Source of the DNA: a virus
Reading direction: 5' to 3' (one strand)
Length of the DNA: 40,512 nucleotides
Virus record (IMG/VR): IMGVR_UViG_3300021090_000057
Span: 1-40,512 of that record
Shown here: positions 3,252 through 36,637 of the stretch, in pieces
Numbering within the stretch: position 1 is the stretch's first letter
Layout: the number at the start of each line of letters is the position of its first letter
Translations under genes and position numbers: made by a program
The notes under the pieces: model-generated
What the model was told of the DNA's origin: nothing
What the model saw: only the letters and a program-made list of their open reading frames with translations
The model's database searches: none

Positions 3252-4166
3252 TTAGGCCGTAGTGAAATCGTACGCGGTAATTGCCAGCGTCTGGCCATAG
3301 ATATCGGTTGCGCCCGACACGGTGATGAGATAGGTGGTGGAAGCGCTTAGATTGGAATTGGGATTGATCGTGATGATCTTGTTGGTCCCATCGATCGTTA
3401 TTGCAGCTGCAATGACCGCGCCCGCGTCGCTCACAAGAGAAATGCCGGTCACGCCAGTCCGCAACGCATTGTTGAACGTAAGAGTCGGGGAGACACTGAC
3501 AGCCACACCCGTGGCAGCATCAGCTGGTGACGGGGTGCAGGTCAAGGCGCTGGCTGAACCAGCCAGGGGCACCTGAACCGCATCGAACCAGGTTGTGGCA
3601 CTGAAGCCTGTGGTATCTTCGTCGCCAATCACGCGCTTGACCCCATCCAACAACGACGCATCGCCTAATAGATCAAATGGATGAACTGTCTTCACCGCGG
3701 TGTAGCTGATCTTCGCGGTCTTTGGATCGGGTGTATCGGTCTTCGTGGCTTGCTCTTCGCCTGGAGCAGCGAATTTGCCTTTTAGATATTGGAAGTAGCG
3801 ATAGCTGCCGTTGGATTTTTCCGAACGAAAAGACAATGCGACATCGGGAGGGTTGCCCCCGTTGTCAAACATGCGACCGCTCGCAGCATCATACGTCTTA
3901 CCCAGGAGGACGGATAGCACCTCCACCGGAATTCCGGTGGTTTCGAGATCGATCTTGGTCTCGCCCTCGCTGGTCATCACATCATAGGGACCATCGTCCG
4001 CATACTGGGTCTTGGAATTGCTGGCAGGCGCAGCGTTCGCGTTGATGAGCGGCGCCATGTAGGCAGGCGTGCCGGCTGTATAGGCATCGACATCATCCTG
4101 GGTCACCAGGGCATAGTAGAGATCGCGCAACCCCAGTGTGCTTTTGTATTCACCTTGTGCTATCAT
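3252..4166 (-). CDS. Major tail protein with C-terminal Ig-like domain
   Basis: This 304-residue tail tube subunit matches the phi13-type major tail protein pattern. It has an N-terminal tube domain (residues about 1-205) with TTGIPVEVLSVLLGKTYD and an FRSEKSNGSYRYFQYLKGKF block. From residue about 210 to the end it carries a bacterial Ig-like (Big_5/SwmB-like) domain beginning CTPSPADAATGVAVSVSPTL and ending YDFTTA. Such Ig domains decorate tail tubes and may bind cell surfaces weakly. AGGAG lies 6 bases upstream of the ATG. It sits between the tail terminator and the chaperone, as usual. Confidence 0.88.
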   Translation of the reverse strand: MIAQGEYKSTLGLRDLYYALVTQDDVDAYTAGTPAYMAPLINANAAPASNSKTQYADDGPYDVMTSEGETKIDLETTGIPVEVLSVLLGKTYDAASGRMFDNGGNPPDVALSFRSEKSNGSYRYFQYLKGKFAAPGEEQATKTDTPDPKTAKISYTAVKTVHPFDLLGDASLLDGVKRVIGDEDTTGFSATTWFDAVQVPLAGSASALTCTPSPADAATGVAVSVSPTLTFNNALRTGVTGISLVSDAGAVIAAAITIDGTNKIITINPNSNLSASTTYLITVSGATDIYGQTLAITAYDFTTA

Positions 4167-6063: not shown

Positions 6064-7224
6064 CTAACCTAACAGTATTGCAATGGCTTCGGGTTTCACA
6101 GCCTTTGAGCCCCACGCCAGGGATACCTCGATCAGTACAAGGTGATATCCAGGATAGACCGAAAGTAGGAAGGAGATTCCACTGTACGGATCGGTGATGA
6201 TCTCATGCTCACCCAAAGCGCCCTCTTTCGGAAGTTCAGGAACGCGGGTCAGACAATGGATTGCATTGCGCTCGAAAGCGAAGTTGCCGGTGTAGTTGTT
6301 TCCAACTGCGACCGGATCATTATTTACCCAGGCGACCCGGTTGCCAGGCTTGGCAAGAACAATATCGCCATCGCCATCACCGGCGAAACCAGTATTGACC
6401 ACGTACTTGTTCGTGTCACGCGCGGTCTTGGTGTTGGTAAGGATATCGCCAGCCAGAATCGTTCCCGTGCCAGTGTCTACATGAACGGTTGTTGATCCCG
6501 CAGCATAGCCGGCGGTTAGATCCGCCAGATAATTCGCAGCCGTGCCCTTGGGGTGAGCTATGATCTGAGAAGACTCATGAAAATCAAAACCTTGCAATCG
6601 TCCAAGATTTCCCTCGCGCAGCAGCTCCGCTGATCCAGCCTCGTTTACCTTGAACAAGCTACTTTGTTTGCTGCGGATATTTGTTCCAGTTGATGTGTTA
6701 AGCACAAAGTGCATGTCGCTTGTCCACGCACCGTTGTCCACCAGGATCTGACGGACTTGTGCAACATCTGAGAGATCGGCTGCGGTGCCAAATGGCGTTG
6801 CGCCGGCCGTGCCATAGGCGCGGGAGGCGCCCTGTTTCGCAGCCAGGAATAGATCATACTCAACTAAATTGATGATGCTTCTGAATGCCTGCGCGAGCTG
6901 ATCCTGCTTCACGTTATCGTAGATTTTGCTGATCGATTTTTGTTCCTCCCCGCGCCAGACAAATGGCGCCTTGTAGGCCTTGCTGATGGCCATTTGTCCA
7001 TAACCAACAGTCTGACCTGCTGGTTCGGAGGGGACCATGGCAGGCGTGACAGCGGTGGGAACGATCGTGGGAACAATTGGATAGGTAATGTTCTGGTTCA
7101 ATGCCACCATGTCGGCGGATGGGTCCATAAAGACCGCACCACAAAAGCCAATTTGCTCGCGTAGTACACGATCGGCAGCAATCTGGGCATCTAACACAAG
7201 ACCTGTTAATGTATTTGCGGTCAT
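6064..7224 (-). CDS. Major capsid protein, P22 coat-like
   Basis: This 386-residue protein starts at an ATG with AAGGAG 9 bases upstream. It lacks an N-terminal delta domain. The order of blocks fits the P22 coat family of HK97-fold capsid proteins: VRQILVDNGAWTSDMHFVLN, then LGRLQGFDFHESSQI, a strand-rich inserted domain with LADLTAGYAAGSTTVHVDTG (I-domain-like), then a C-terminal YPGYHLVLIEVSLAWG. The inserted domain in P22 stabilises the monomer. The gene follows a protease and a scaffold-like gene. P22-type coats are mostly known from podoviruses but also occur in siphoviruses. Confidence 0.88.
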   Translation of the reverse strand: MTANTLTGLVLDAQIAADRVLREQIGFCGAVFMDPSADMVALNQNITYPIVPTIVPTAVTPAMVPSEPAGQTVGYGQMAISKAYKAPFVWRGEEQKSISKIYDNVKQDQLAQAFRSIINLVEYDLFLAAKQGASRAYGTAGATPFGTAADLSDVAQVRQILVDNGAWTSDMHFVLNTSTGTNIRSKQSSLFKVNEAGSAELLREGNLGRLQGFDFHESSQIIAHPKGTAANYLADLTAGYAAGSTTVHVDTGTGTILAGDILTNTKTARDTNKYVVNTGFAGDGDGDIVLAKPGNRVAWVNNDPVAVGNNYTGNFAFERNAIHCLTRVPELPKEGALGEHEIITDPYSGISFLLSVYPGYHLVLIEVSLAWGSKAVKPEAIAILLG

Positions 7225-16274: not shown

Positions 16275-17246
16275 TTAGCTTGCCATCATTTTCATAAAAG
16301 CATCCACGACATTTGGATCGTAAAGTTCACCGGACTTCGCCTGGATATAGTCCAGAGTGAATTTTTTCGATAACGCAATCCGATAAGGCCGGTTGCTTGT
16401 CATTGCATCGAACACATCCACGACCGTGAACAACCGCGCACACTGCGGGATCTCATATTCTCTCAAACCTCTTGGATAACCGCTTCCATTCCACAATTCA
16501 TGATGACAGTAGGGAATATCCAGCGCGCACCCCTGCAGAAACTTGATTGGAAAAAGGATTGTATAAGCAATCTGTGGATGCAGCTGCATTAATTCAATCT
16601 CCTCAAGATCCAGCTTGCCAGGTTTATGCAGGATGGCATCCGAGACAGCCATCTTGCCTATATCATGCAAGAGCGCACCGCGCCGGAATCCAATTAACTC
16701 GCTGTCTCTGAAATCCATTGCCCGTGCCAGCTTATCAGCCAAGCCTACGAGACGGAGAGAATGACCAACTGTTTCTTTGTCACGGAATTCCAATGCCCTT
16801 GACCAGCTCTGCAACGTCTGATCATAAACTTGCAGGACTTCAGCGTTAGCCTTTCCAAGTTTATGGATAAGTTTTTTTTGCATCGTGGTGTTTTGAAACA
16901 CAGAGACAAAAGTGTCCTGCTCAAACGAATACACTGAAATGTCGAACCACATTTCAAGTTCAGGGAGATACTGCTCAAAACGCTCATGCCGTTGTGTCCT
17001 TGCTACACGCGCATAAGTTTCCAGTAGGAGTGGATTGCTTTTATGGATCCCGGGAATCACTTCGGAAACTTGCCTATTCACCACATCTTTCAGTCCGGTT
17101 TGTAATTCAAATGCCGGGTTGACAGAAATATATTTCCAATCCACCGCCTTTTCCCCATCATAAATGATCTGACAATAAGCCAGACCGTCGATCATGTGCT
17201 CGAACAAAACTTTGTGCAGATGGCCGTTTGGTTTATTAAATGGCAT
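16275..17246 (-). CDS. PAS/HD-GYP phosphodiesterase-like protein
   Basis: I place the start at the ATG at 17246 (MPFNKPNGHLHKVLFEHM), because a terminator-like hairpin occupies 17296-17327; the longer frame from 17336 would begin before it. The 323-residue product has a PAS-like sensor (residues about 10-120: LAYCQIIYD, YISVNPAFELQTGL) and an HD-GYP domain with LLHDIGKMAVSDAILHKPG (HD at 194-195) and HHELWNGSGYP (248-258). All key metal-binding residues look intact. HD-GYP enzymes hydrolyse cyclic di-GMP or cGAMP. The domain is rare in phages and pairs here with a GGDEF-type protein at 28138-28662. Confidence 0.85.
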   Translation of the reverse strand: MPFNKPNGHLHKVLFEHMIDGLAYCQIIYDGEKAVDWKYISVNPAFELQTGLKDVVNRQVSEVIPGIHKSNPLLLETYARVARTQRHERFEQYLPELEMWFDISVYSFEQDTFVSVFQNTTMQKKLIHKLGKANAEVLQVYDQTLQSWSRALEFRDKETVGHSLRLVGLADKLARAMDFRDSELIGFRRGALLHDIGKMAVSDAILHKPGKLDLEEIELMQLHPQIAYTILFPIKFLQGCALDIPYCHHELWNGSGYPRGLREYEIPQCARLFTVVDVFDAMTSNRPYRIALSKKFTLDYIQAKSGELYDPNVVDAFMKMMAS

Positions 17247-17268
17247 TGATGATGATCCGTTTACTTCC

Positions 17269-17327
17269 GAACAGACCTGCTCCAACATTAAAAAGGGACA
17301 GACCTCATAAAGAGAGCAGGTCTGTCC
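17269..17327 (-). terminator. Terminator/attenuator hairpin ahead of the HD-GYP gene
   Basis: On the minus strand, GGACAGACC (17327-17319) pairs perfectly with GGTCTGTCC (17304-17296) and is followed by five T (17294-17290): a rho-independent terminator. The same 5' arm, extended to 14 bases (17327-17314), can instead pair with GAGCAGGTCTGTTC (17282-17269) with one G-U pair. Two mutually exclusive folds suggest regulated read-through into the HD-GYP gene. Confidence 0.65.
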
Positions 17328-17386
17328 ACTTCGCATTCTAATGCATTATCAAGACAAGGCAATAGGCGATTAGGTTACAGTTTTTG

Positions 17387-17402
17387 TCTCCGACGTCGGA
17401 GA
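17387..17402. repeat. Perfect 16-bp palindrome TCTCCGACGTCGGAGA after gene 17413-17739
   Basis: The palindrome lies 11 bases past the stop of the minus-strand gene ending at 17413. Its core TCCGACGTCGGA recurs at 30471-30484, also just past a gene end. No T-run follows on either strand, so it is not a classical terminator. Confidence 0.6.
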
Positions 17403-17412
17403 TTGGCTTGTG

Positions 17413-17739
17413 TTACTCTTTGATCGGGGGAACAACGTTGTGCCCATGTCCGGGTGGCTTCGCTGACTTGGCTCCCCTCCACTTCCTGAATGCGAGCATG
17501 ATGCCGGCTGCGGCTTGCTGGTTTTGCTTCAGGTCCTGCTCCACGAATTCAAATATAAACGCATCGCCTTCCGCTCCCTCGGCTGCTTCTAGTAAGTTAA
17601 GCGCCAGGTCCCTGGCTGCGTCGGGTTCGAGTTGGATCGGGTGGTCCTTCGGTTGGTTTTCTATTTCGAGTTGCACGAAGGCTTTGCGTGTGTTGGCTCC
17701 ATAGCCGGTCGTGACCATGAAGGTTATCTCTTTACTCAT
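17413..17739 (-). CDS. Hypothetical 108-residue early protein
   Basis: The ATG (MSKEITFMVTTGYGANTR) has GGAG upstream. A strand-rich N-terminus is followed by LEPDAARDLALNLLEAAEGAEGDAFIFEFV, a pattern seen in small phage early proteins, and a Gly/Pro/His-rich tail. Unknown function. It precedes the terminator in front of the HD-GYP gene, so it may end its own transcript. Confidence 0.6.
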   Translation of the reverse strand: MSKEITFMVTTGYGANTRKAFVQLEIENQPKDHPIQLEPDAARDLALNLLEAAEGAEGDAFIFEFVEQDLKQNQQAAAGIMLAFRKWRGAKSAKPPGHGHNVVPPIKE

Positions 17740-17754
17740 CGCTTGTTCTCCTTT

Positions 17755-18273
17755 CTACTTCTTCGCGATTTTCAAGCCTTCATCGTATGCGCTTCGAAGC
17801 CGCTTGAAATCATTCTCATCACCACCAGCATCCGGATGATGGACCTTCGATAGCGCCCGAAACGCGTTTCTGATATCCGCCTTGGATGCGTCAGGCTTTA
17901 CACCAAGAATTTCATACCAGGGAGATTTGCCGCTCCCCAGCATCAGCACACTATCATCAGGCGTCGCAATAAAGCCCGCGAAGACACTATCGAACTCCTC
18001 ATCGAAGGATGTCTCACTCATGTCCACGCCATAAAGCTCAAGCGCGCGGTAGAGAAAATCGATTTGAAGTCCGATCGCACGCAGGTTGTCAATTGAGTCT
18101 TCCCAACGCGTGCACTCACGTACATAACGCCTGCCGGTACGATCAAAGATGACCTTCACTCCCCCACCCATCACGTCCTGCTCGATGCGCAGTGACGTGG
18201 CTCCGATCTTGGTCATGATCCTTTGAAGATCTTTGACTGTTGTTTGTTGTGTTGCTGAAAATCTACGAGCCAT
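17755..18273 (-). CDS. J-domain protein 1
   Basis: This 172-residue protein has an N-terminal region of unknown type (residues 1-105) and a C-terminal J-domain: SPWYEILGVKPDASKADIRN, then HPD at 146-148 and a last helix DENDFKRLRSAYDEGL. J-domains stimulate host DnaK ATPase, and the HPD tripeptide is essential and present. Phage J-domain proteins can recruit Hsp70 to replication or assembly complexes. It overlaps the upstream gene start by a few bases. A second J-domain protein is at 19936-20397. Confidence 0.85.
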   Translation of the reverse strand: MARRFSATQQTTVKDLQRIMTKIGATSLRIEQDVMGGGVKVIFDRTGRRYVRECTRWEDSIDNLRAIGLQIDFLYRALELYGVDMSETSFDEEFDSVFAGFIATPDDSVLMLGSGKSPWYEILGVKPDASKADIRNAFRALSKVHHPDAGGDENDFKRLRSAYDEGLKIAKK

Positions 18274-18574
18274 TATTGTTTCTTCCTCTCAATTTCCATC
18301 GTAAGGCCTGCCTAGTTATATTCGCCATTGCTTCGATGATGGATTGCGATTGTCTCCACTCACGAGACCTGGGTGGTTTCTTCAAGCCCAGCACGATCAA
18401 TAACCCTTCATCCTTCGGCAGCCAGTCACCTCTGCTGTTCGCTATGCGGTTCAAAGTTCCAGGTTTTACGCCCGGATAATCGTCACGCGCGATAGTGCGA
18501 TATGACCGTCTGTTTTGATTTTGCCGCAAGATGCGATTTGCGAGTTTTTTGGCACCCACCTTGCCATTGGTCAT
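18263..18574 (-). CDS. Hypothetical HTH-like early protein
   Basis: The start is the ATG at 18574 with AAAGGGG 9 bases upstream; an ATG at 18583 is also possible. The product has about 103 residues, with a basic N-terminus and a helical segment (YRTIARDDYPGVKPGTLNRI) that could be a helix-turn-helix, then LPKDEGLLIVLGL. A 19-bp perfect palindrome lies about 28-46 bases upstream of the chosen ATG (18602-18620), so the gene is a good candidate for operator control. Confidence 0.55.
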   Translation of the reverse strand: MTNGKVGAKKLANRILRQNQNRRSYRTIARDDYPGVKPGTLNRIANSRGDWLPKDEGLLIVLGLKKPPRSREWRQSQSIIEAMANITRQALRWKLRGRNNNGS

Positions 18575-18601
18575 TTTACGCATCCCCTTTCGCCCAGGGG
18601 G

Positions 18602-18620
18602 GTGTCACAACTTGTGACAC
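18602..18620. promoter_or_regulatory. Perfect 19-bp palindrome, candidate operator
   Basis: GTGTCACAA-C-TTGTGACAC lies in the 86-base gap (18584-18669) ahead of the HTH-like gene. Just downstream, CCCCT and AAGGGG can form a small hairpin that would cover that gene's ribosome site. A related but imperfect TGTCACA pair occurs at 32365-32382. Confidence 0.5.
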
Positions 18621-18669
18621 GCATCCTGGGACTTGTCTCGCGGCTGATCAGGACTGGTTTTGGCATCGC

Positions 18670-18969
18670 CTAGAATTTCAGCTGTTCCGCGCGCTGTAGG
18701 GCAAAGCGCGCGCTCATCCTGTAGCGGCTGCCGTTCTGCTCCGGGACGGGTTGGACTTTCTGCACCGTATAGGGAAAATGACTCATCACCGTTTCCCATT
18801 CCTTGAGACTTGGAAACTTATCATCGCGTGTGATCGCCAGATGGACATCACTCTTGAGATATACCAGCTCGATTCGCAGACCTCTGCCAAGTTTTCTAAC
18901 GACCTTCTGTCCAGCCTTCGCCTTTGCTTCAGCGAATTGATCCTCGAGGATTTCATGCAATCTGTTCAT
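18670..18969 (-). CDS. Hypothetical 99-residue early protein
   Basis: The ATG (MNRLHEILEDQFAEAKA) has AAAGGA upstream. A helical start is followed by a compact strand/helix region with GLRIELVYLKSDVHLAITRD and a C-terminal YRMSARFALQRAEQLKF. Unknown; coding is supported by a good ribosome site, its fit in the operon and ordinary codon usage. Confidence 0.6.
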   Translation of the reverse strand: MNRLHEILEDQFAEAKAKAGQKVVRKLGRGLRIELVYLKSDVHLAITRDDKFPSLKEWETVMSHFPYTVQKVQPVPEQNGSRYRMSARFALQRAEQLKF

Positions 18970-20617: not shown

Positions 20618-20622
20618 GGTAA

Positions 20623-20811
20623 CTATATACATGTCTCACCTGATTGATTATCTCCGCCCTCTTTCTCTACCCAAAATTTTGGGTAATCAAGAATGCCGCT
20701 TTCAAGGTCTGCTATGTAAATTTCATAGCAATCACAGCACACAAGAGAGCCATCTTGATAGATGTCTGTTTTGCATAAAGTGCATGTTCTATTTGGGGTT
20801 ATTGACTCCAT
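20623..20811 (-). CDS. IS passenger: small Cys-rich protein
   Basis: The 62-residue product begins MESITPNRTCTLCKTDIY and has paired CTLC and CCDC motifs, a likely zinc ribbon. AAGGA lies 9 bases upstream of the ATG. The gene ends within the left terminal repeat, so the repeat provides its stop. Function unknown; a role in transposition or target choice is a guess. Confidence 0.6.
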   Translation of the reverse strand: MESITPNRTCTLCKTDIYQDGSLVCCDCYEIYIADLESGILDYPKFWVEKEGGDNQSGETCI

Positions 20812-20884
20812 GTTTCTTTTTCCTTTTCTTCTTGGGTTTCGGTTTCTCGATTTCCTTTGGAGGCACTTTGATTAGTTTCTTCAT
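20789..20884 (-). CDS. Possible Lys-rich 31-residue ORF of the IS
   Basis: From the ATG at 20884 the frame reads MKKLIKVPPKEIEKPKPKKK and on to a stop at 20789, overlapping the next gene. The extreme Lys/Pro content suits a nucleic-acid-binding peptide, but no good ribosome site is visible and the A-rich run may simply serve the next gene. Confidence 0.35.
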   Translation of the reverse strand: MKKLIKVPPKEIEKPKPKKKRKKKHGVNNPK

Positions 20885-20897
20885 CAGGTCATCAAAC

Positions 20898-21860
20898 TTA
20901 CCGAAAGAGTCTGAGTTGCTTGTATTCGGTTTTTTGGATGAGTTGGGCATACTTCAATCGCTTTCCCGCAACCATCGAAAGCACTTCGGTAAACCGTGTG
21001 CTGTCGTTGCCACGTCTATTATTGAATCGGAATGTTTGCTCATCAAGATAACGAAACAGATGAGCCGCTTCACAACTTACATAAGTCCCGCGAAGGGAAC
21101 GCTTGAACAAAGACCAGTAATTTTCAATGCCATTCGTGTGAATGTTTCCCTTCACGTATTCGGTAGCATGGTCAATGCTTTCATGGATGAATTCATCCAT
21201 GCCGTTATAGGATTGCAGGGCATCCGTGAAAAGGTTAGAACCTGCTTCAACGCTCTTTCGGATTTCGGGTTGCAGGGTTTTCTTCTTGGTGTTTCTCACC
21301 ACTTTTGTTTTTACCTTGCTGGATTTATCCCCCGCGTTCCTTTCCAACAGACCAAACACAATAGCCTTACCAACCGTCCCGCGCCCTTGAACTCCCATTG
21401 CTTCGCGCTTCCACTTGTGCATGTTTTCAGCCTTGCCGCCTATGTAGGTTTCATCGGCTTCAACTTCGCCACTCAGGGTTTCAAATGTTCCCGATTGCAT
21501 AGCCAAGCGGATGCGATGCAACATAAACCAAGCGGTCTTTTGAGTCACTCCAAGAGCGCGGGCAATCTCGCACGAGCTAATACCGTTCTTCGCATTGGCA
21601 ATCATCCAAACACAGGGAAGCCATTTATTCAAGCCGATAGGACTATTCTCGAAGATCGTACCGACCTTGACGCTAAACTGCTTCTTGCAGGCTTTACACT
21701 TCCAAGTTTGGCGGGTGGTCAGATATGAGTGTTCTTTGCCTCCACACTTGGGGCATACAACCCCATCAGACCAACGCAGGCTTACAAGATAGTCATGCGC
21801 TACGTCTTTATCGGCAAAGTAGATTATGGCTTGCTGTAGTGTTTGCGGTTTGTCAGTCAT
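20898..21860 (-). CDS. IS1595-family transposase
   Basis: The likely start is the ATG at 21860 (MTDKPQTLQQAIIYFAD), which overlaps the previous stop and has AAAAGG upstream. The 320-residue protein has an N-terminal zinc ribbon (CPKC at 36-39, CKAC at 55-58), an HTH (ISSCEIARALGVTQKTAW), and an ISXO2-type DDE-like domain: EADETYIGG (D136), LFTDALQSY (D213) and NGIENYWSLFKR (N243/E246). All expected blocks are intact, so it is probably active. Confidence 0.93.
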   Translation of the reverse strand: MTDKPQTLQQAIIYFADKDVAHDYLVSLRWSDGVVCPKCGGKEHSYLTTRQTWKCKACKKQFSVKVGTIFENSPIGLNKWLPCVWMIANAKNGISSCEIARALGVTQKTAWFMLHRIRLAMQSGTFETLSGEVEADETYIGGKAENMHKWKREAMGVQGRGTVGKAIVFGLLERNAGDKSSKVKTKVVRNTKKKTLQPEIRKSVEAGSNLFTDALQSYNGMDEFIHESIDHATEYVKGNIHTNGIENYWSLFKRSLRGTYVSCEAAHLFRYLDEQTFRFNNRRGNDSTRFTEVLSMVAGKRLKYAQLIQKTEYKQLRLFR

Positions 21861-22170
21861 CAGGGTGTAACCTTTTCCAAATTTCATTTACTATGAGTTT
21901 CGGTTCTTCTGGTTTAGGCTGTTCTTCTGTTTCCAGATCAGGATTTATTTCTTTGAGAAACTTTCTATTGACTCTTGACTTGGAAGCGTACAAGCAATTC
22001 AAGGCACGTATTATCAACTGGAAATCTTTACGGGCATCACCTGTAAGAAAAGACTCGAACACTTCGCGTTCGCCTTTGTATGCTCGAAACTTCTTGTTGA
22101 ATTCTGGTTCGGGGGCGGGTTTTCGTCCCGCCCCTTCTCTCTTGCCACCATGCGTTTTTTTGTTCATCAT
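21853..22170 (-). CDS. IS passenger: GGKREGAGRK-type DNA-binding-like protein
   Basis: This 105-residue protein starts MMNKKTHGGKREGAGRK, an N-terminal motif common in small mobile-element proteins that look DNA-binding, followed by a helical core (DFQLIIRALNCLYASKSR) and a C-terminal acidic/proline tail. It overlaps the transposase start. Function unknown. Confidence 0.65.
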   Translation of the reverse strand: MMNKKTHGGKREGAGRKPAPEPEFNKKFRAYKGEREVFESFLTGDARKDFQLIIRALNCLYASKSRVNRKFLKEINPDLETEEQPKPEEPKLIVNEIWKRLHPDD

Positions 22171-22174
22171 GGCT

Positions 22175-22459
22175 TTACTTCCAGAGTTTCCAGCCGTCTA
22201 CGGGTTCATCTTTGACATCGGTCACAATCTGGGGGAACCACATGCGGAGCCATCGCTTATTGCTTTCGTGCCACTCGCAAAGCGTTCCGTCCTCGAAGTG
22301 GCTATTGCACAGTTGTTTGATTTCAACCGCAAAGCGTTCGGTTTTTTTGCCATGCATGTTTTCGTCAACGACGGTAACAAAATTGGCTTGATAAATAACC
22401 TTGTCGTCAAAACCCTTGACTCCGTTGTAGTACCTGACTTCGTGAATTTGCTTGTTCAT
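22175..22459 (-). CDS. IS passenger: hypothetical 94-residue protein
   Basis: The start ATG (MNKQIHEVRYYNGVKGF) has AAAGGA upstream. The product is strand-rich with two Cys in LCNSHFEDGTLCEWHE and Trp-rich C-terminal half. It is the first gene of the IS transcript. No family recognised. Confidence 0.6.
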   Translation of the reverse strand: MNKQIHEVRYYNGVKGFDDKVIYQANFVTVVDENMHGKKTERFAVEIKQLCNSHFEDGTLCEWHESNKRWLRMWFPQIVTDVKDEPVDGWKLWK

Positions 22460-22584
22460 GATTGCGTTTCCTTTCGTTTGTTAGTTTCTTGTCCGTTGAA
22501 TTCAGTATACTACAATCAAGAGCAGAAAACATTACAAATTCATTGCAGGAATTCACAGGTGAGACATGTATATAGTTACCAAAT

Positions 22585-29969: not shown

Positions 29970-29996
29970 TCTTCATACCCAAAAATTAACTTGGGA

Positions 29997-30046
29997 ACGC
30001 TTGCTTCCCAAGCAAGATATCGTGGGTTCGAGTCCCATCACCCGCT
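29997..30046 (+). other. attP: attP core: 3' half of a tRNA-Gly(CCC) gene
   Basis: Bases 30000-30016 form an anticodon arm (stem CTTGC/GCAAG, loop TTCCCAA, anticodon CCC), 30022-30038 a T-arm (GTGGG TTCGAGT CCCAT), and 30039-30046 the 3' acceptor strand and discriminator (CACCCGCT). The D-arm and 5' acceptor strand are missing, so this is not a complete tRNA gene. A partial tRNA 3' end beside an integrase is the usual sign of attP. Confidence 0.85.
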
Positions 30047-30113
30047 TTCGCTAGGTAAAACTAAAGCTATTTAGTTGTTAAGGTGCTTACTCACCTGACG
30101 CCTAGCCAAAGCT

Positions 30114-33135: not shown

Positions 33136-33228
33136 TTATTTCCACACCAAAAGCACAAACGAGACAGTAATACATAACGCTAATTCAATCAACAGTCCGT
33201 TGATGATCCCGCGAATGAGCGGATTCAT
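33136..33228 (-). CDS. Possible 30-residue membrane peptide
   Basis: From the ATG at 33228 the frame reads MNPLIRGIINGLLIELALCI and ends FVLLVWK, a single membrane helix. No clear ribosome site is seen. Position after a short coiled-coil gene in the late operon would suit a lysis peptide. Tentative. Confidence 0.35.
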   Translation of the reverse strand: MNPLIRGIINGLLIELALCITVSFVLLVWK

Positions 33229-33248: not shown

Positions 33249-33440
33249 CTATTTCTTGACCGGCTTCTTGGCTGACGGCTGGGAGCTGACTTCTTCCGCT
33301 GGCTCGGTCGGCATGGCTTCGATCTTTCGCGCCAAAATGTCCAGCCTCTCCATGAGCTTCTGCACCGTCTCCCGATTGCCTGAAAACTGTGCGCTGTTCA
33401 ATAAATCCAGGAGCAATTTTTTTTCTTCTTGAGTGAACAT
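33249..33440 (-). CDS. Small late protein (63 residues)
   Basis: The ATG at 33440 (MFTQEEKKLLLDLLNSAQFS) has AAGGAGACCG directly upstream. The pattern GNRETVQKLMERLDILARKI is common in short phage helical proteins. The Pro/Lys-rich tail is disordered. Unknown role. The inverted-repeat element starts 17 bases upstream, between this gene and the fibre gene. Confidence 0.65.
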   Translation of the reverse strand: MFTQEEKKLLLDLLNSAQFSGNRETVQKLMERLDILARKIEAMPTEPAEEVSSQPSAKKPVKK

Positions 33441-33448
33441 CGGTCTCC

Positions 33449-33456
33449 TTATGTTA
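33449..33456. repeat. Target site duplication of the 581-bp element, left copy (TTATGTTA)
   Basis: TTATGTTA at 33449-33456 repeats at 34038-34045 on the other side of the element. The stop TAA of the fibre gene lies inside the right copy. Confidence 0.85.
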
Positions 33457-34037
33457 GGTGACAACATACTTGACACAGAAACTTCATACTCCATGCCATG
33501 ACACTTTGCCGTCATCGGTGAACTCAAAAGTTAATCCCAAATGCGATTCAATTATCGCTTTTTCTTCGGGCGTAGCATCCATCAGATGGACAGTGTAAAA
33601 CTTGCCATGCGTTGTTTGCGAGGCAGGCATTCCCGGCTCATGCCAGTGACCATCAGGTGTCTTTATCCAATCCCTGCGATGGTCGTCCGGTAAAAAGTTT
33701 GCGGAGGCTCGAATTTCAAGCAGTCCTGCGTGCGGATTAGGGATGCCATCGAAATACGACTTGTGCGGCCAGCCATATTTCCAATCAGCCCATTCACCAC
33801 GCGCACCTGCCTGGATTGCGGCAACCACATCAGACGGGTGCATTGAGCCGCAGTAGCCACAATTGCGTAACCTGCCCGTCCAATATCGCTCCCCCTTCGC
33901 AATATCAGGCGGTTCTGCATTGTCCCAAGACACGCGACCATCAGGCCACATACCTTGTCCTATTAGATTCATTCCATCACGGTGAGCAATGCTATATTCC
34001 ATGTTTACTCCTTTTCTGTGTCAAGTATGTTGTTACC
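33457..34037. mobile_element. 581-bp non-autonomous transposon-like element carrying one gene
   Basis: The element has 25-bp terminal inverted repeats matching at 24 of 25 positions (33457-33481 and 34013-34037; inner strand begins GGTAACAACATACTTGACAC), flanked by the 8-bp duplication TTATGTTA. The ends start GGTRAC like the IS1595-family element in this genome, and that family also makes 8-bp duplications. There is no transposase; the only gene is at 33484-34002. It would need a transposase supplied in trans. Confidence 0.8.
33484..34002 (-). CDS. Cargo protein of the 581-bp element
   Basis: This 172-residue protein (MEYSIAHRDGMNLIGQGMWP start) has AAAAGGAG upstream inside the element. It contains NCGYCGSMHPSDVVAAIQAG, a zinc-binding-like CxxC...H, then WADWKYGWPHKSYFDGIP and a C-terminal TPEEKAIIESHLG. 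Similar proteins occur in phages but I cannot name a family. Filling almost the whole element between the repeats marks it as cargo rather than a phage core gene. Confidence 0.65.
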   Translation of the reverse strand: MEYSIAHRDGMNLIGQGMWPDGRVSWDNAEPPDIAKGERYWTGRLRNCGYCGSMHPSDVVAAIQAGARGEWADWKYGWPHKSYFDGIPNPHAGLLEIRASANFLPDDHRRDWIKTPDGHWHEPGMPASQTTHGKFYTVHLMDATPEEKAIIESHLGLTFEFTDDGKVSWHGV

Positions 34038-34042
34038 TTATG

Positions 34043-36637
34043 TTATGTCACGATCAGCCTGTAGCAAACATTTGCGGAATACGAGAACGTGCCAGGTGAG
34101 CCCACTTTTGCATAATAAATCGCCATACCATAAGAATATGCTGGGTTGGGGGTATCAGCGGCAGAGTCATGATCAGTAAAAACATCATGTGTATCAGCAC
34201 TGGAGTTGAATGCTCTGAATTGTGCAACGCCTACACCGAGATGAAGTGTTTTTAGTGTGACTGTCCAATAATTCGAGCCGTTATTAGTCCCAGTGATGTA
34301 GGTGGACACCGAAACTCTTGTAACATAAATTGCATAATCACCACGAATACGTGAACCATTTCCCGAATCGCCATCAACCGCAAATCCGGACGCATACGGA
34401 AAGAAGTGGGAAAGCTCGAAATCTGTCAGCCAGCGCGTTCCATCATAGAAACAGGACCATCCCAGATCAGTCCTGAAAAATCTATCCCCTGTGCTTGGAG
34501 AGCCGGGGAACGACGTACCCTCGCCGCCTCTTATTTTCCCTGTGACTTTCATATCCCCTGTCACCTTGAGTTTGTACCCACTCTCCGCCGCACCACCCAT
34601 GCCGATGGCATCCAAACCGGCATCGACGATCAAGAGGCTGTTGTCAGTATCGCCCCTTATAATCGTGTCTTTATCCGCGCCCCCTTCGTTGATGATTACT
34701 GCACCCTCTAAGGCTGTGTCACCAGTCACTTTTAGCTTTTTGCCGCTGGCTACCCCGCCTCCAATCGCGACTGCATCCAATCCCGCGTCAATCTTAAAAA
34801 GGTTTGGATCTGTGTCCCCTTCAATACGAAAATCTATATCCGTTCCGCTTTCGTTAAATACGGTAGTTTTTCCGGCTGCCGCCGCCCAGATGACAACCTC
34901 ACCGCCCATGGAAATCTGACTGCCTGCTGTTCCTATTGTTAAGTCCATCCGGGCAACGTCTGCATTGTCTGGATCTTCAAAAACCTTTACATAGCGGGCG
35001 CTTCCGTCCGTGGTTTTTATTTGTAGTTTTACCGATTTCCCTATGTTGTTATTTATCAACTGTATGGCATCATCGCTCACCGCGTGCAGGTACATGCTAA
35101 TAACGCCCGCGGCGTTTTTAAAGCCCAGGACCTGCACGTCATTCGAGAATGTAATACCAGTTGAATTCATCACCACGTTTCCCCCGCCGGCTGTGATCGC
35201 GCCGGCCACTGTGGACATTTCCGCCTGTATCGTCTGTGCGTTCCACGTCGCGCCCTGGGTGACGAGCTGAATGGACGCAGAAGCACCTGCGACCAGTTCG
35301 ATACGGCTGTCTCCATTGTGCCCGATCACCACAAACGGCGTGTCTTTCAACCAACCGTTCGCCCCCGTCCCATCCACGTTGCGAGTCACGTTGTAGGTCG
35401 TTCCCGAAACCAACGACCCTATCAGCATCCACTCCAGGTTGTTCGAGCCGGCACTGTCCGGCCCCTGAATTTTTATCCAGTCGCCAACCGTCAGAGATTT
35501 CCCAAAATTCACCGTCGTAGCGCCCGAGGATACATCCGCCCCGAGTTTGCCTGCGTCCTTACTGACGATGATATTCCCTGCAACTGCCATTTGATTACTG
35601 GAGGTCAGCAAAAATGTTTTTAGTTCTCCGCGCGCCACGATGTTGTTGAACTCGGCATCGCCGGTGTCTGCTGAGATGTTGAAGCCAGACAGGCCTGTGG
35701 AGAAATTGCTTGATCTTACCCGCTTGTTGGCACCGTCGATCTCAATGTATGTCCCACCTGTGTCGCCGATCTGGATCTTGGGAGTGGTGGAATCCAGGAC
35801 GATCCCTACCAGGCCGCTTAATTTTCTCAGGTATGAACTGGAGATTGTCCATCCGCCGATGGCTCCACTGGTCGCGGTGATGCTTCCCGATATGGTTGCG
35901 CTGCTAGCGACCATATCCCCGTTCTCGTAGACCCGGAATGAGGCAAGAGTCGGATTTCCGCTTCCGGCAAAGATGCGGATGTCGTTTCCACCAGTGACTG
36001 CTGAAGATAGCCCCACAACCCCTGCCGCGTCGATGATCGTTGCGCTGGCAATGTGCCACCCGCCGATCTCACCCGAGGTCGCATTGATAACTCCTGTGAT
36101 CTGGGCATTAGAAGCAACTACTAGCCCGGATTCATATACTCGGAAGTCCGCATTGGCAAAGTCCGTATCTCCAGCAAAGAAGCGAATATCATCCCCGCCT
36201 GTGATGGTCGAGAGAAGCCCTGCGCTGCCTGCTGCGTCGGTAAGGGCATCTTCGCCTAGTACCCAGCCGCCGATAGTCCCTGAGGCTGCATGGATCCCAT
36301 CCTCATCCAGCCACACAGCGCCACCAGCTGCATATAACTTCCCATCATCGGCATCTACATAAAACGTGACAGTGCCTGTCTCATCGAATGCAGCCAGGTT
36401 GGCGTTGATATTAAACTCAGCGTCCAGGCTTATGGCGCTCATGACCAGGCGCACAATCCCATCTGCTGCCACGGCACGGAAATCCGTCGAACGAGGAGCA
36501 GGAAACTGAGATGGCGCTGCATTGATGGTAATGTTTGGCACTGGACGCTGGAACGCCTCGTTTTTCACTTTCATCCGTCGAAGAAGGTTGCGTAACTCCC
36601 TGGGATCGGTGTTATTGATAATGTCTTCTGCGTTCAT
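34043..36637 (-). CDS. Tail fibre / receptor-binding protein with internal repeats
   Basis: This 864-residue protein follows the tail hub gene and overlaps it by 4 bases. After an N-terminal attachment region come about 2.5 copies of a roughly 70-residue unit based on ATSGxIGGWxIxxxx...DIRxFAG...FRVYExG (residues about 110-290), then further fibre-like regions, including two copies of a LxIVDAGLDAIxxGG...GYKLKVTGD unit (residues about 590-680). A C-terminal globular domain (residues about 715-864) ends in VCYRLIVT. This is the typical build of a trimeric fibre with a C-terminal receptor tip. Its stop lies inside the target duplication of the 581-bp element. Confidence 0.8.
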   Translation of the reverse strand: MNAEDIINNTDPRELRNLLRRMKVKNEAFQRPVPNITINAAPSQFPAPRSTDFRAVAADGIVRLVMSAISLDAEFNINANLAAFDETGTVTFYVDADDGKLYAAGGAVWLDEDGIHAASGTIGGWVLGEDALTDAAGSAGLLSTITGGDDIRFFAGDTDFANADFRVYESGLVVASNAQITGVINATSGEIGGWHIASATIIDAAGVVGLSSAVTGGNDIRIFAGSGNPTLASFRVYENGDMVASSATISGSITATSGAIGGWTISSSYLRKLSGLVGIVLDSTTPKIQIGDTGGTYIEIDGANKRVRSSNFSTGLSGFNISADTGDAEFNNIVARGELKTFLLTSSNQMAVAGNIIVSKDAGKLGADVSSGATTVNFGKSLTVGDWIKIQGPDSAGSNNLEWMLIGSLVSGTTYNVTRNVDGTGANGWLKDTPFVVIGHNGDSRIELVAGASASIQLVTQGATWNAQTIQAEMSTVAGAITAGGGNVVMNSTGITFSNDVQVLGFKNAAGVISMYLHAVSDDAIQLINNNIGKSVKLQIKTTDGSARYVKVFEDPDNADVARMDLTIGTAGSQISMGGEVVIWAAAAGKTTVFNESGTDIDFRIEGDTDPNLFKIDAGLDAVAIGGGVASGKKLKVTGDTALEGAVIINEGGADKDTIIRGDTDNSLLIVDAGLDAIGMGGAAESGYKLKVTGDMKVTGKIRGGEGTSFPGSPSTGDRFFRTDLGWSCFYDGTRWLTDFELSHFFPYASGFAVDGDSGNGSRIRGDYAIYVTRVSVSTYITGTNNGSNYWTVTLKTLHLGVGVAQFRAFNSSADTHDVFTDHDSAADTPNPAYSYGMAIYYAKVGSPGTFSYSANVCYRLIVT

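Follow-up and report, generated by a model that had tools for sequence, protein, structure and literature searches.

Phage evolution poses the question of how lone accessory genes ('morons') are acquired in the absence of neighbouring homology. The locus described here raises it in a concrete form, namely how a single small gene bracketed by repeats came to lie between a tail-fibre-like gene and a small late gene. The window, meaning the whole stretch of DNA that was analysed, is an IMG/VR virus record (IMGVR_UViG_3300021090_000057) of 40,512 bases, and it encodes terminase, portal, coat, tail tube and a tyrosine recombinase. A sequence resembling the 3' half of a tRNA (GGGTTCGAGTCCC, at about 29985-30050) is located just behind the tyrosine recombinase gene and may be the phage attachment site.

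The 581-bp cassette and its cargo gene

The cassette occupies positions 33457-34037 of the window (581 bp), and spans 33449-34045 once both target site duplications are counted. Its left terminal inverted repeat (GGTGACAACATACTTGACACAGAAA, 33457-33481, plus strand) and its right one (reverse complement GGTAACAACATACTTGACACAGAAA, 34013-34037, minus strand) are 25 bp long and identical at 24 of 25 positions, and the repeat has no further occurrence in the window. A perfect 8-bp direct repeat, TTATGTTA, flanks the element at 33449-33456 and 34038-34045. A first-pass annotation had described a 581-bp element with one cargo gene and no transposase, placed between the fibre gene and a small late gene; recomputation returned the same boundaries, the same repeat identity, the same duplication and the same neighbours.

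The only ORF in the cassette is the cargo gene (172 aa, 33484-34002, minus strand), which covers 89% of the element and leaves 36 nt before its start and 27 nt after its stop. Mononucleotide shuffling of the element, repeated 300 times, never produced an ORF of this length. An AAAGGAG ribosome site follows straight after the right repeat, just upstream of the ATG. As no transposase is encoded within the 581 bp, the unit itself is not an insertion sequence. Its inverted repeats resemble those of an IS family, it has a target site duplication and a passenger gene without a transposase, and it is by anatomy a mobile insertion cassette (MIC).

No family match to the cargo was found in Pfam, PHROG, NCBIfam or PADLOC, and no significant match among PDB sequences; its AlphaFold model (4 sequences, mean pLDDT 66) gave no meaningful Foldseek match. 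Its relatives, at 51% (L004), 39% (L005), 29% (L006) and 36% (LR745208), are ordinary phage genes that share the motifs CxxCGS and ADWKYGWPHK with it. The records of L004-L006 showed no cassette-type ends.

Insertion site and related phages

The cargo is co-oriented with the genes on either side, which are the 864-aa tail-fibre-like gene upstream (34043-36637, minus strand) and a 63-aa late gene downstream (33249-33440, minus strand), whose ribosome site GGAG comes directly after the left duplication. Read on the minus strand, the duplication is TAACATAA, and its right copy holds the TAA stop codon of the fibre gene. Joined without the cassette, the flanks form a tight natural junction of about 14 bases, composed of the fibre TAA, CATAA, GGAG, ACCG and the ATG of the 63-aa gene. 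The insertion therefore disrupts nothing, and the cargo joins the operon in its reading direction.

Two relatives possess the same tail region without the element. In L008/L009 a fibre with 61% identity precedes the 63-aa gene, which is 76% identical at nucleotide level over 140 bp; because a short ORF separates the two genes in L009, this denotes absence at the matching region and not an exact empty site. In L150 (contig of L011) the tail genes are in the same order, and no cassette-type ends lie behind the fibre. The exact pre-insertion site was found in neither L008/L009 nor L150, and a search by the 349-aa gene yielded no further relatives. The look for empty sites proposed with the first-pass annotation was thus rewarded with relatives lacking the element. 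The repeats and duplication are not conserved at this place in all relatives; such conservation would have spoken against insertion.

The order of the small late genes that follow the fibre differs between the window and L009: a similar membrane-like ORF of about 30 aa comes after the 63-aa gene in the former (about 33138-33228, minus strand) and before it in the latter (about 7057-7149, plus strand).

The resident IS1595 element

The window also carries an IS1595-family element of 1963 bp (20618-22580, minus strand) with a perfect 26-nt inverted repeat (GGTAACTATATACATGTCTCACCTG) and the 8-bp duplication AAATTTAT. Duplications of 8 bp, usually A/T-rich, are known for this family (PMC12561309), and the element conforms to this. 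Its transposase (329 aa, 20898-21887, minus strand) has the IS1595-type zinc ribbon and DDE domain (PF12760 and PF12762) and scores above the Pfam and NCBIfam cut-offs (NF033547, 194.5 bits against a cut-off of 75). The motifs DET, FTD, HTNGIENYWSLFK and FRFN are present, with the N of HxNGIEN and the K that follows, and the series equals that printed for ISApl4 (PMC12561309). Passenger ORFs of 94, 105, 53 and 62 aa lie on both sides of the transposase gene; a Pfam scan of two of them returned no family match. L150 has an IS1595 element of its own (16724-18819), at a genome place different from that in the window, and its flanks share AAATCT, which is 6 and not 8 bp.

The resident ends agree with the cassette ends at 16 of 22 positions, a value equalled in none of 20,000 permutations, whereas IS1595 elements of other contigs agree at up to 20 of 22. 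The cassette ends fit the motif that bounds IS1595 elements of other viral contigs (e.g. L010, L012, L013, L016 and L025), each with an 8-bp target site duplication. For plasmid IS1595 elements at 39-43% identity, ends could be located for one of four. Because the resident ends match less well than those found elsewhere, IS1595 is well supported as the enzyme family, but the individual enzyme is not, and the resident transposase may be regarded as a candidate partner of the cassette. The proposal that the element moves with an IS1595-type enzyme therefore stands as to the family, through the type of the ends and the transposase in the record, and not as to the resident enzyme.

Cassettes of the same type in IMG/VR

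Ends with 8-bp duplications, taken from IMG/VR relatives of the resident transposase, were the starting point for a scan of IMG/VR for the common end motif, and pairs were kept when at least 7 of 8 bases were duplicated. This gave 38 pairs in 130 loci; the reversed motif, used as a control, gave 0. Among the 38 pairs are a few composites made of nested or tandem units. An IS1595 transposase, whole or in part, is contained in about 20 elements, which range from 0.8 to 3.5 kb. Fifteen transposase-less elements of 245-735 bp, that of the window included, are distributed over 11 records (10 besides the window's); as they were found by way of the end motif, this sample gives no measure of how common they are, and some of the records may be plasmid or host fragments classed as viral by IMG/VR.

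The duplications of the 15 cassettes are perfect in 14 cases and match at 7 of 8 bases in one, with an A/T content of 72% over all of them. Their cargoes are small, unrelated to one another and nearly all without a Pfam match. A cassette was considered filled when a ribosome-site start was within 95 nt of one end and a stop within 35 nt of the other. By this rule 10 of the 15 are filled by one small gene that has a ribosome site, compared with 21 of 803 stretches drawn at random from these loci, and in the ten cassettes the gene starts 35 to 41 nt from the end. The remaining five contain two or three small genes, or less regular content. No IS1595 transposase was found in 9 of the 11 cassette-bearing records, and the enzyme therefore probably acts in trans.

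The first-pass annotation had seen a route for swapping small cargo genes after the fibre. A special role for that place is not supported: the cassette of the window is the single case there, and the others are located at various gene junctions or inside a transposase gene. The latter is found in L016, where a 361-bp cassette (3528-3888, 100-aa gene, duplication CAAGTAAA) splits the IS1595 transposase gene of an element that has its own target site duplication. Four cassettes occur in the L041/L103 record, and two of these form a tandem. In this tandem (L041, 4601-5380) two different cassettes of 511 and 245 bp are separated by the 8-mer AAAGGCAG, which also stands on the outer side of each; the second unit may have entered the duplication of the first, or both may have chosen the same site. 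The cassette at 560-1266 of L059 has a 116-aa ORF that matches phrog_8036 and the PADLOC PDC-S13 model, and at least one cargo is thus related to a candidate defence protein.

The search of phage and host genomes for the terminal repeats, also suggested at first pass, succeeded for the general end motif, which bounds 14 further IMG/VR cassettes, and not for the exact 18-bp core of the cassette ends, with 0 occurrences in IMG/VR. One match to the core, inside a coding-like stretch of a Ruminococcus contig, was judged to be chance. The end motif gave one lone match in 299 genomes of the bacterial phylum of that contig and is hence not common there. No cassette was found in plasmids, and the pattern of end plus AAGGAG yielded no new pairs. 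A second copy of the window's cassette was found neither in IMG/VR nor in plasmids, so that no transposition event of this cassette was seen directly.

Proposed mechanism and alternative explanations

The 581-bp unit is very probably a non-autonomous mobile insertion cassette of IS1595 type, moved in trans by an IS1595-family transposase. A DDE transposase of this family, supplied in trans by a resident element or by the host, would recognise the two GGTRACAACATACTTGACAC ends, move the segment between them and insert it at an A/T-rich target cut with an 8-bp stagger, which would give the TTATGTTA duplication. The cassette would bring a ribosome site and one gene with no obvious promoter; promoter-like sites in the region are no commoner than in shuffles. 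It appears to have inserted at the fibre gene's stop codon in operon direction, so that the fibre, the cargo and the downstream gene would all still be translatable from the late transcript, and the cargo would be expressed from this transcript of the recipient operon. Transposition, action in trans and read-through of the operon are what we infer here from sequence.

Decay of a complete element is improbable as an explanation. The unit would then be a now fixed remnant of an IS1595 element that kept its passenger and lost its transposase by deletion, and small passenger ORFs do lie beside the transposase in the IS1595 element of the window and in other autonomous elements, from which deletion could give such units. 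Both ends, the duplication and the ORF are nevertheless intact while nothing of a transposase remains, and the 14 other units, with different genes, are mostly built equally tightly. Deletion may be the origin of the cassettes, yet their intact ends argue for continued movability.

Less likely still is an integron-like or recombinase-driven gene cassette, placed by site-specific recombination and not by DDE transposition. The single promoterless genes, the tandem units of L041 separated by the same 8-mer and the tyrosine recombinase encoded in the window would all suit it. Site-specific recombination, on the other hand, makes no target duplications, and every unit has long IS1595-like inverted ends and its own, differing 8-bp duplication. 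That the repeats and the duplication are chance, or a regulatory or terminator structure around a normal late gene, hardly deserves consideration: the left end coincides in part with a weak terminator-like stem, but terminator-like sites are near the shuffle mean in number, 25-bp repeats are expected 0 times (100 dinucleotide shuffles), and elsewhere the same motif forms the ends of IS1595 transposase elements that have 8-bp duplications.

Tentatively, and with rather less than even confidence, we suggest that genes are shuttled among uncultured phages by a system of IS1595 transposases and transposase-less single-gene cassettes, in which small promoterless accessory genes are moved in trans into junctions between the genes of expressed operons, where they can pile up. 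If so, its function would be much like that of an integron without the array integrase, with units composed of an end, a ribosome site, a gene and an end. This repeated design, together with clean duplications and IS1595-type ends, provides a concrete and searchable route for moron gain. As almost no cargo matches a known family, small phage accessory genes could be listed by their brackets rather than by homology.

Comparison with known systems

Integron gene cassettes resemble these units in that single promoterless genes are moved into an expressed place, but the units described here differ from them in their DDE-type inverted ends and target duplications. MITEs are likewise small and non-autonomous, with IS-like ends and a target site duplication. 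They are non-coding as a rule, whereas the cassettes are mostly coding and so depart from MITEs in carrying cargo.

Passenger genes are an established trait of IS1595 elements (Siguier 2009, as cited in PMC3129680 and PMC12561309). The cassettes have in common with IS1595 elements the end motif, the 8-bp A/T-rich duplication and the passenger genes, and the cassette of the window differs from IS1595 insertion sequences in having no transposase in the unit. Its ends also differ from those of ISApl4 (GGGGCTGTACTAGA; PMC12561309), a member of the IS1016 subgroup. Among the titles and abstracts covered by our literature search on IS1595 or non-autonomous passenger-gene elements in phages, with subscription papers mostly outside its scope, none reports such cassettes.

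The closest counterparts are the MICs, transposase-less cassettes with passenger genes (De Palmenaer 2004, as cited in PMC3129680), with MIC231 of Bacillus cereus (as cited in ISsaga, PMC3129680) and a qnrS2 cassette (PMC5444012) as examples. The window cassette shares with them IS-family inverted repeats, a target duplication, a passenger gene, the lack of a transposase and presumed mobilisation in trans. Cassettes of the window type differ from the cited MICs in their IS1595-type ends, in their presence in viral records and in being filled end to end, mostly by one or two tiny genes. We know of no assignment of either the MIC231 or the qnrS2 cassette to the IS1595 family or to a phage. MICs are thus known as a kind, and the IS1595-type, phage-borne, mostly single-gene form filled from end to end appears to be new.
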